Shown here one piece after another: positions 11,673-42,963 of a DNA stretch of 64,000 nucleotides. Each line of letters starts with the position of its first letter. The first letter of the stretch is position 1. The DNA is from Methanobrevibacter ruminantium M1 (GTDB lineage Archaea > Methanobacteriota > Methanobacteria > Methanobacteriales > Methanobacteriaceae): assembly GCF_000024185.1 (NCBI RefSeq), contig NC_013790.1:2355001-2419000 (forward strand). Direction: 5' to 3'. The position numbers and the translations under genes were made by a program. The notes under the pieces are model-generated. The model searched no databases and was not told the origin of the DNA. It worked only from the letters and a program-made list of their open reading frames with translations.

Positions 11673-12386
11673 AATTTGACTCCAATATTACTTTAAACAA
11701 ACTCCTTTATTAATTTTTCTAAAAAACTAATACAATAATCTTAATTTAAATATAAGTTACAATATGATATTAATATTAACATCAAATAGTAACCATAAGC
11801 TTATATCCATTTTACGATCCCATCAATTTAATTAGCTTAAATCAAAATTGATTTAAGTTCGTAACAATTTAGCATTTTAAAATCAAAATTGACTTGAACT
11901 TAAAACAATTTACCACTTTAAAATCAAAATTGACCTGAGCGTGTAAAACTTTTTAAATTCATAAAAAATCTTAATAAATTTAATCAATTATTTAAAAAAT
12001 AGATATAAAATTTATTACTTAATTATTTATGTAATTTATTACTATTTAATTTATTCTATTTTTAAGCCTTGAAATATTAAGTTTTTTGTAAAAATCTTAA
12101 AAAAATAGGGTGGAAAAATCCAATTTTTTATGAAAAATTAAAAAACTTAGACTAAAAAAAATTAAAATTTTATTTAAATATTAAACCACTTAAAAGAAAA
12201 ATTTCTAAGATAAAAATTAATAAAAATCCTCCGAAGCCATTAAAATAGAAAAACAATTACGCCACCAATCAAACAAAACAAAATTTTATATTATAATAAA
12301 GATAAAAATTAAAACATAAAAGATAATAATGTAAGGATTTTAATAATTTAAAATTTAATAGGCAAATTCCTTTTAGATGTGTTTAT
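11673..12386. other. 714-bp gene-free region containing a 41-bp phased repeat
   Basis: Divergent spacer between archaetidylserine synthase and the Lys-tailed protein. Its left half holds the 41-bp repeats at 11840-11955. The right half (11960-12386) is AT-rich with no open frame, RNA-like GC island or hairpin that I would call. Confidence 0.5.
11840..11955. promoter_or_regulatory. Phased CAA-N2-TTG array, 41-bp repeat unit
   Basis: AATCAAAATTG occurs at 11840, 11881 and 11922, exactly 41 bp apart. Between these sites lie the related CAATTTAG at 11865 and CAATTTAC at 11906. Core-to-core steps are therefore 22, 19, 22 and 19 bp. The first core extends to a 6-2-6 palindrome AATCAA-AA-TTGATT. 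The bases between cores drift more than the cores themselves. This is seen directly; a role as binding sites of a DNA-bending or regulatory protein is inference. Confidence 0.6.
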
Positions 12387-15215: not shown

Positions 15216-15568
15216 AAAAAGACCCCCTAAAAAAGTATTATATATTAATATAAATCTTGTAATTATTATAATTGTTGAAAAATAACAAAATTTAACACAC
15301 TCAAATCAAAATTGACCTAACCCTAATAAAAATCCCTAAAAAAACACCAAAGTTTAACACACCAAAATCAAAATTGTTTCAATATTAAAGCAATTTTGAT
15401 GTGAGAAAAGTGAGAAAATCCCCCAATTTACAAAAGTATTTAAGAAAGAAATAATTAAGTATTAACAAAAAAGATTTAAAAATTTTCACACCCTTGATTT
15501 AATTTTAATAAAATCATTTTAAATCTTAAAAATAAAAATAAGAAATAAAATCAAAGGAAAGTAAGTAA
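15216..15568. other. Divergent spacer with a second phased CAA-N2-TTG array
   Basis: 353 bp between the antitoxin-like gene and rnhB. The repeat array at 15283-15400 occupies the centre. The remainder is AT-rich and should contain promoters for both flanking genes. Confidence 0.45.
15283..15400. promoter_or_regulatory. Phased CAA-N2-TTG array with 62-bp direct repeat
   Basis: Cores start at 15286 (CAAAATTT), 15307 (CAAAATTG), 15348 (CAAAGTTT), 15369 (CAAAATTG), 15380 (CAATATTA) and 15391 (CAATTTTG). Spacings are 21, 41, 21, 11 and 11 bp, all close to whole helical turns. A 62-bp direct repeat underlies it: CAAAATTTAACACAC at 15286 recurs as CAAAGTTTAACACAC at 15348, each followed by AAATCAAAATTG. 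It is the same motif as the arrays near 11840 and 42284. Confidence 0.55.
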
Positions 15569-20259: not shown

Positions 20260-21165
20260 ATGATTACCATACTTTCCGGAGGCACAGGAACTCCCAAACT
20301 AATACAAGGAATAAAAGAAATCTACCCTGAAGAGGAAATATCTGTCATCGTAAATACAGTGGAAAACGAATACTTTTCAGGAGGATATGTAGCTGCAGAC
20401 TGTGATACAGTTATGTACACCTTTGCAGATATGATTGACGACCAATTCTTCTATGGAATTATAGGAGATACATTTAAGATAAGAAACATCCTAATTGAAA
20501 TGGGAACTACAGAGCTTCTTAAAATAGGAGATATGGATCGAGCAATCAAGATTCAAAAGACAATCCTTTTAGAGGAAGGAAAGACCCTTAGCGAAATTGT
20601 AGAACATCAAAAGAACAAGCTAGGAGTTAAAGCAAAGATAATCCCAATGAGCGATGAGGACTCTGAAATAAAAATAATAACAAAAGAGCATGGCGAACTG
20701 GATTTCCATGACTTCCTAATCAAGCACCAATGCGAAGGGGAAGTTCTTGAAGTAAAATACAGCGACGTTAAGCCAAGCCCTAATGTGATTGGAACAATTA
20801 AAGATGCAGATAAGGTAATCATAGGTCCATCCAATCCGATAACCTCAATAAGGCCAATAATTGCAATTGAAGGGGTTGAAGAGGCACTTAAGGAAAAGAA
20901 AGTCATTGCAGTCTCACCATTTTTAGGAGAAGCCGCTTTCAGCGGACCTGCTGCCAAATTCATGAATGCATTTGGATATGAGGCATCATCTAAAGGAGTT
21001 GCTGAATTATACAAACCTTTCTTAGACACATTTATAATAGACAATGAGGATAAAGACAAAAAGGAAGAATTAGAAAAAATAATTCCAAATATAGTAGTTG
21101 CAAACACCTTTATGAAAACAATTGAAGATAAGATCAATCTTGCAAAAGTGGTTTTAGAACTTTAA
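20260..21165 (+). CDS. cofD: 2-phospho-L-lactate transferase (F420 side-chain formation)
   Basis: Transfers the activated phospholactyl (or enolpyruvyl) moiety to the deazaflavin Fo to give F420-0. The start at ATG 20260 gives MITILSGGTGTPKLIQGI, the canonical CofD N-terminus; an in-frame GTG at 20251 would add three residues and GAGTG precedes the ATG. Other signatures are GGYVAADCDTVMYTFADMID, FYGIIGDTFKIRN and IIGPSNPITSIRPI. The 302-residue length is standard. The last 30 bases are part of a perfect 50-bp tandem repeat. Confidence 0.95.
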   Translation: MITILSGGTGTPKLIQGIKEIYPEEEISVIVNTVENEYFSGGYVAADCDTVMYTFADMIDDQFFYGIIGDTFKIRNILIEMGTTELLKIGDMDRAIKIQKTILLEEGKTLSEIVEHQKNKLGVKAKIIPMSDEDSEIKIITKEHGELDFHDFLIKHQCEGEVLEVKYSDVKPSPNVIGTIKDADKVIIGPSNPITSIRPIIAIEGVEEALKEKKVIAVSPFLGEAAFSGPAAKFMNAFGYEASSKGVAELYKPFLDTFIIDNEDKDKKEELEKIIPNIVVANTFMKTIEDKINLAKVVLEL

Positions 21166-21264
21166 AAAAATAATGAAAACAAATGAATCTTGCAAAAGTG
21201 GTTTTAGAACTTTAAAAAAATAATGAAAACAAATGAATCTTGCAAAAGTGGTTTTAGAACTTTA
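21136..21264. repeat. Perfect 50-bp tandem repeat of the cofD 3-prime end (2.6 copies)
   Basis: Units start at 21136, 21186 and 21236; the first two are identical over all 50 bases and the third matches for 29. The unit begins AATCTTGCAAAAGTGG and contains the last nine codons and the stop of cofD. Complete identity points to very recent duplication. Confidence 0.92.
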
Positions 21265-41734: not shown

Positions 41735-42007
41735 TTAAAGCCTTGAATAATACTCTAAAATTGATGAAATATCGGCTAAAGCCTCGTCTGTGTCTCCTTT
41801 TTCCATTGCATTTTTAATGCAGTTATCTAAATGACCTTCTACAATAATATATCCGACCCTATGCAAAGCAGATTTAGAAGCATTTATCTGCATTAAAATA
41901 TTTTCACATGGAATATCTTCATCAATCATACGATCAATGGCATTAAGTTGGCCAATAATCTTTTTAAGTCTTCTATGTAGATTTTCAGAATCCATACATT
42001 CTTTCAA
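41735..42007 (-). CDS. csoR: CsoR-family copper-sensing repressor
   Basis: A 90-residue all-helical DUF156 protein that leaves DNA on binding Cu(I). The Cys-His-Cys ligand set is visible: Cys34 (DIPCENILMQ), His59 (VEGHLDNC) and Cys63. The N-terminal RRLKKIIGQLNAIDRMI matches the family's DNA-contact helix. It lies directly upstream of copA on the same strand, with operators before each gene. Confidence 0.93.
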   Translation of the reverse strand: MKECMDSENLHRRLKKIIGQLNAIDRMIDEDIPCENILMQINASKSALHRVGYIIVEGHLDNCIKNAMEKGDTDEALADISSILEYYSRL

Positions 42008-42261: not shown

Positions 42262-42420
42262 AAACAATTTTAACAGCCTTAATCAATATTGTTACGAAAT
42301 AAAAGCAATATTGTTACGAGATAAAAGCAATTTTCTAGCGATATCAAAACAATATTGTAGCGAGATTAAAACAAGTTTGTTATTAAATTAAAACAATTTT
42401 ATATCTTTAAATCAATTTTT
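42262..42420. promoter_or_regulatory. Phased array of eight CAA-N2-TTG sites, six exactly 22 bp apart
   Basis: Core starts: 42265 CAATTTTA, 42284 CAATATTG, 42306 CAATATTG, 42328 CAATTTTC, 42350 CAATATTG, 42372 CAAGTTTG, 42394 CAATTTTA, 42413 CAATTTTT. Steps are 19, 22, 22, 22, 22, 22 and 19 bp. The linkers partly repeat as well (TTACGA or TAGCGA followed by ATAAAA). It ends about 80 bp before the downstream ribosome site. Direct observation; function is inference. Confidence 0.7.
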
Positions 42421-42513
42421 ACTTATCATACTAAGGTTAAATTTAAATACAATTAAAATAAATCAAATATTAGGCAAATAAAGAAAAATACTTAAAAAAA
42501 TATGAGGTGTAAT

Positions 42514-42963
42514 ATGTCTAGTGAAAAACGAAATAGCAAAGATCAATCCTACTTAGGCTTTGAACTTATTGAAGTGGAGGACTACTATCTCCTATCAAAC
42601 ACAGAAAAGCTGCTTGAAACAGTTAAAAAAGACTGGTTTAAAAGCCTAATGGACGAAATAAGAGAATTGGTTGGAAAGCATTATCCAGACTTTGTAATTT
42701 ACTTAGCCTATGTTGATCATGGAGATGACGGTACAATTTTAGGCTATGTGAATGTAAGGGAAGATGACAATAAGAGAGATGAAGAGTATTCAGAAGTTGC
42801 TCTAAACAAAGAAATGCTTGAGATATGTGAAAAACACAAAGAAGATAAAATATTATTTGTAACAATTCCAAGAAAGAGAAAAAGCTTTATAAAGTTAAAA
42901 AAAGGAAGCATCAGAGAACATTTCAAAGAGGCTCTATTAAAATTAGGTGCAAAGCCACTATAA
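42514..42963 (+). CDS. Hypothetical basic protein downstream of the phased array
   Basis: Taken from ATG 42514 (MSSEKRNSKDQSYLGFELIE), set by GAGGTGT 5 nt before it; 149 residues. I recognise no domain. It is soluble, mixed alpha/beta by composition (FVIYLAYVDHGDDGTILGYV then KILFVTIPRKRKSFIKLKKG), with a basic C-terminal third that could contact nucleic acid. It has no same-strand neighbour. Confidence 0.65.
   Translation: MSSEKRNSKDQSYLGFELIEVEDYYLLSNTEKLLETVKKDWFKSLMDEIRELVGKHYPDFVIYLAYVDHGDDGTILGYVNVREDDNKRDEEYSEVALNKEMLEICEKHKEDKILFVTIPRKRKSFIKLKKGSIREHFKEALLKLGAKPL

Follow-up and report, generated by a model that had tools for sequence, protein, structure and literature searches.

In the genome of Methanobrevibacter ruminantium M1, positions 42265 to 42420 of the window (the whole analysed stretch of 64,000 nt) carry on the forward strand an eight-core array belonging to a genome-wide family whose members usually end upstream of a TATA-like box and recur before orthologous genes of sister species. 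We read it as an upstream activating array of a competence/DNA-metabolism regulon, cooperatively bound by one factor, with a probability of about 0.66; that it regulates in cis, as part of a conserved regulon, appears very probable. How archaea take up DNA, and how this uptake is switched on, is largely unknown. A promoter element standing before pilus, TctA, OB-fold and recombination genes of a rumen methanogen provides both a list of candidate competence genes and a bait for their regulator.

The eight-core array and its promoter

The cores of the array, which was identified by pattern, a Markov chance test and matches to R1 (a sequence-only model of two consecutive units), lie at 42265, 42284, 42306, 42328, 42350, 42372, 42394 and 42413. 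Pattern search reproduced exactly these eight positions, and the steps of 19-22-22-22-22-22-19 bp, as they had been given in the earlier note. The series reads, in order, CAATTTTA, CAATATTG, CAATATTG, CAATTTTC, CAATATTG, CAAGTTTG, CAATTTTA, and CAATTTTT. All eight had been described as CAA-N2-TTG sites; this is exact for four of them (42284, 42306 and 42350, each CAATATTG, and 42372, CAAGTTTG), the other four (CAATTTTN) being one mismatch away from that consensus. By itself the CAANNTTG motif is not enriched in the window (28 seen; 32 expected). The longest chain of CAANHT at 19 or 22 bp has eight members in the window and at most three in 300 first-order Markov copies of it: the special trait of the array is its register, not its motif count. 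All pairs among the five adjacent 22-bp units agree at the CAA and TT positions, whereas the 14-bp linkers are about 70% identical, in agreement with the earlier description of conserved cores and drifting linkers. The array is also called by Tandem Repeats Finder. A structured RNA was rejected, since the array has no Rfam match and its fold (z = -1.43) is not unusually stable. A CRISPR array was rejected as well: the linkers of 13-14 bp recur and are partly conserved, in contrast to the unrelated 30-40 bp spacers of CRISPR. Elsewhere in the window (21136-21264) there is a perfect 50-bp tandem repeat of 2.6 copies.

Directly after the last core follows, on the same strand, a promoter-proximal element (TTTACTTATCATACTAAGGTTA; 42418-42439), found near-identical, with small changes, after the arrays of a paralogue (1525 kb) and of TctA (707 kb). 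A TATA box recognised by its consensus (TTTAAATA; 42442-42449, forward strand) has its centre 30.5 bp downstream of that of the last core (42413). The array would regulate, from upstream, the gene beginning with the start codon at 42514 (42514-42963, forward strand), its probable target. The 149-aa product, previously taken for a basic protein, is acidic (net charge -3, pI 5.9) and has no relative in Pfam, NCBIfam or PDB; its paralogue also stands behind an array (C1:1525 kb, C1 being the single contig), and a relative occurs in sister genome G018. Relatives of the 42514 protein (L032:155-1505 in G018; L047:1-1406) lie in a short gene row with a HEPN-like protein, whose likeness in G018 is weak, and such rows are possibly a toxin-antitoxin or defence-like unit. 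The divergent neighbour on the other side was rightly recognised as csoR: it encodes a CsoR-like metal-sensing repressor (Trns_repr_metal; 41735-42007, reverse strand), probably not a target because the array is about 300 bp from its start.

A genome-wide family with two spacings

We searched the M1 genome (2,937,203 bp in a single contig) with patterns and with the model, and read it in stretches. The R1 model gave 134 matches at E<=0.1, grouped in 43 clusters, and chaining of cores gave 39 arrays with 211 units, 185 of 19 bp and 26 of 22 bp. The genome holds about 40 intergenic arrays of one family. The array at 42265-42420, regarded earlier as special to the csoR locus, is one member of this genome-wide regulatory family, and the 19-bp step, earlier called an outer step, is its commoner spacing. 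The same spacing with similar linkers was found elsewhere in the genome by a spaced-pattern search, and CAATTT pairs lie exactly 19 bp apart in 39 of the first 100 matches listed, with 31 spacings allowed. The spacing follows a simple grammar: after a directional CAATTT the next core usually comes at 19 bp, and after a palindromic CAANWTTG normally at 22 bp; core 42328 is an exception, as it is not palindromic and yet is followed by 22 bp. The consensus of the 19-bp unit is CAATTTnACannnTnAaAT, cores occur in both directions, and the longest array (16 units) precedes TctA. Such a two-spacing grammar, combined with long arrays, is an unusual promoter design. The window contains a second array (11824-11932, forward strand; steps 19-22-19-22-19), flanked by a PssA-like gene and an uncharacterised one; sister genome G007 has an R1 match at the orthologous position. 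It also contains two palindromic cores 22 bp apart (CAAAATTG and CAATTTTG; 15369-15398, forward strand), which precede the RNase HII gene (15569). The passages searched of the M. ruminantium genome paper make no mention of the arrays, and our literature search found no Methanobrevibacter regulator with such site arrays. At C1:957895-957960 a different repeat (CAATTTATTTAT) recurs at 12 bp, a spacing unrelated to that of the arrays, and nine isolated three-core matches were seen in viral contigs.

The arrays are intergenic, with the start codon usually 30-200 bp further on. Examination of 22 promoters showed a TATA-like box downstream of the last core (all TATA boxes being consensus matches, not mapped start sites). 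The distances between the centres of last core and TATA box cluster at 25-36 and 42-50 bp, most of them at 27-31 or 45-50 bp, one 19-bp unit apart, and their phase modulo 19 is non-uniform (P ~0.002), a result that does not tell periods of 18-22 bp apart. Repeated sites upstream of BRE/TATA, the layout of a multi-site upstream activating sequence, were thus found in 22 promoters, and the sites are common to the 43 clusters in M1 and present in sister species too. The core with its flanks (approximately AAATCAATTTNAC, or AACAATATTGTT in the 22-bp form) is the putative binding site of one sequence-specific factor. Sites every two turns would occupy one face of the DNA and end close to the TFB/TBP site, and several bound units could therefore act jointly on the promoter. 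The factor is most likely an activator that aids TBP/TFB recruitment.

Genes behind the arrays and their conservation

Array-fronted genes were identified at the Pfam level. The one TctA gene found in M1 stands behind the 16-unit array; the genes of a T2SSE ATPase and a T2SSF protein come next, in the same orientation (C1:707954-712258), a row in which the putative DNA transporter adjoins pilus motor genes. Both T2SSF genes of the genome are array-linked, one in this row and the other directly (TadC, with a class III pilin), and the single OB-fold/TM protein found, with an N-terminal hydrophobic segment, is array-fronted as well. Also array-fronted are prepilin peptidase, class III pilins and further pilin-like proteins, as well as a DinG/YoaA-like helicase, a Cas4-like protein, RadB, RNase HII, a topoisomerase and MCM. 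Seven other array genes share or resemble a D...ExQ motif; from this motif and two weak NCBIfam matches their products are predicted to be Rpn-like PD-(D/E)XK proteins. No DNA role is evident for MoaC, RraA-like, TPR, methyltransferase, argB and adhesin genes, which also follow arrays. The same factor would control about 40 other promoters, among them those of the type IV pilus, prepilin peptidase, TctA-like putative DNA transporter, OB-fold membrane protein, recombination/replication and PD-(D/E)XK genes.

Natural transformation of M. maripaludis needs type IV-like pilus genes, eppA, an OB-fold/TM protein and a TctA-like protein, as established by a transposon screen and deletions, and according to the screen also a thermonuclease (PMC10133366). 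The type IV-like pilus, prepilin peptidase, OB-fold/TM and TctA-like proteins correspond to array targets in M1, the equivalence being one of family and architecture, not of alignment; by contrast, a cis-regulatory element is not described there, and the thermonuclease family gene of M1 has no array. It was the arrays that pointed to TctA and OB-fold, the likeness to competence genes being recognised only afterwards. Fonseca et al. reported no ComEC homologue and went no further than suggesting that competence may be regulated (PMC10133366), and no report of natural competence in Methanobrevibacter was found in the literature searched. Because many array genes resemble DNA-uptake and DNA-processing machinery, the arrays are probably the switch of a competence/DNA-handling network. 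We lean towards a regulon that serves competence or DNA handling, and consider it an even bet that they act as the cis-element of an archaeal competence regulon not described before and common to Methanobrevibacter. The arrays are a reason for transformation tests in this genus. Should the reading hold, array genes of unknown function, including the 42514 gene and the Rpn-like PD-(D/E)XK genes, would encode new factors of DNA uptake or processing, and the case for TctA, which has the longest array, as the DNA transporter would be strengthened.

Matches to R1 are present in 17 of 18 genomes of the same genus, reduced to one or two weak ones in other genera of the family, and absent from 12 genomes of other families of the order. 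Phased 19/22-bp cores, which the earlier note had proposed to look for elsewhere, thus occur in some 40 arrays of M1 and in sister Methanobrevibacter. The top sister-genome matches precede TadC, the DinG-like helicase, prepilin peptidase, DUF3800 and an Rpn-like gene, at orthologous places. In nine sister TadC promoters, AATT pairs number 22 at 19 bp and 14 at 38 bp, against about 3 for most spacings; an excess at 19/38 bp is absent from 20 genomes of other genera. The cores of the M1 TadC array are opposite in direction to those of the sister species and keep the same 19-bp register; the array has therefore turned over while the register stayed. In most sister species the TctA and OB-fold promoters carry one to a few cores, and the OB-fold promoters, mostly with one or two, have no 19-bp excess. 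These few cores suggest that the long arrays arose by expansion of an older promoter with a single site; array length varies between species. An ancestral single site in the g7 clade was considered and rejected: three of the four genomes have AAATTGATTT before TadC, but this pattern combined with a TATA box does not define a regulon in that clade. When 84,980 genomes were scanned for four CAATTT at 19-bp spacing, 52 stretches were obtained; 21 belong to Methanobrevibacter or its relative Methanovirga, and several of the 52 precede VapBC-type, Rpn-like or other small genes. In several Methanobrevibacter species (L203, L207, L210, L211, L220, L236, L241) an array lies behind a Fap7-type adenylate kinase gene and is followed by changing small genes (VapB/VapC-type and others), a locus that resembles an exchange hot spot.

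Alternative explanations and known systems

Silencers typically have large arrays that fill cooperatively, and the same regulon may be governed by cooperative repressor operators (SOS-like, or a nucleoid-type silencer) through which costly genes for DNA uptake and nucleases stay off until a signal arrives. We hold this to be rather unlikely. The two cores of the MCM promoter do follow the apparent TATA box, a position that resembles that of a repressor site, and some arrays are no more than about 25 bp from the TATA centre; nearly all, however, end upstream of BRE/TATA, where archaeal activators bind, repressors binding over or after BRE (PMC5512572). For this reason an activating role is the more likely one, and the array quite probably activates. 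Another reading keeps the promoter role and drops the special competence link, the arrays then marking many inducible genes in general. The targets without a DNA role fit it, as do the toxin-antitoxin-like and HEPN-like genes that relatives have behind arrays, and we give it appreciable weight, unlikely as it is: every TctA, OB-fold/TM and T2SSF gene found is array-linked, compared with about 3% of promoters by a rough estimate, which makes chance unlikely.

Explanations outside gene regulation fare worse. Direct repeats of 19-22 bp look iteron-like and replication genes are among the targets, so that sites of chromosome organisation or replication (a centromere, origin-recognition-like boxes, iterons) could be considered, but the roughly 40 copies are scattered, are linked to TATA boxes and to genes that in part form a coherent set, and make up no single origin-like cluster. 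This renders the reading very improbable, and iterons were rejected. The least probable explanation, hardly to be credited, is a functionless minisatellite made by slippage. Units are indeed alike within an array, some arrays have local duplications, and array length is unequal between species; against this, the same cores and both spacings recur at about 40 unrelated intergenic places, by promoters and at sister orthologues, so that copies are neither local only nor free of positional and phylogenetic constraint, and the M1 TadC array has reversed cores in the sisters' register. The AATT phasing at 19/38 bp in nine sister TadC promoters already contradicts a minisatellite. The claim made in the earlier note of a cooperative filament or dimer set in place of slippage holds in so far as the sites are ordered and putatively protein-binding, because both steps recur at dozens of unrelated loci and the register is kept at sister orthologous promoters; filament and dimers are hypothetical forms of such binding.

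A bacterial parallel to an activating competence array is provided by the ComK AT-boxes of Bacillus, AT-rich, helically phased activator sites common to competence, recombination and other genes. They share these features and targets with the M1 arrays but are bacterial and form paired boxes rather than long arrays, and no homology is claimed. Ribbon-helix-helix (RHH) proteins often fill tandem operators. The archaeal cell-cycle regulators CdrS and aCcr1 are RHH proteins, small and DNA-binding, with regulons (PMC7439475, PMC8406309); they are likened here by description, not by site comparison, and no RHH protein is tied to the M1 arrays.

In methanogens, EarA of M. maripaludis has four 6-bp sites just upstream of BRE/TATA at the fla operon (PMC5512572), likewise several short repeated sites serving a type IV-filament-like machine; these concern one operon and the archaellum, however, whereas the M1 arrays reach 16 units in strict 19/22-bp register at about 40 promoters, including pilus and DNA genes. 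Ptr2 (Lrp family) of Methanocaldococcus recruits TBP from multiple upstream activating sites (described in PMC5512572), which resemble the M1 arrays in their number and their place upstream of BRE but differ in sequence and have few targets. Regulator candidates of the RHH-like and V4R/ArsR types were noted in M1, and none was supported. An RHH-like gene, a possible candidate, lies beside an array and prepilin peptidase in M1 (L085, C1:1642 kb) and in G011 (L063), and a V4R/ArsR-type gene, noted as a candidate too, adjoins the DinG-like helicase gene in M1 and G018.
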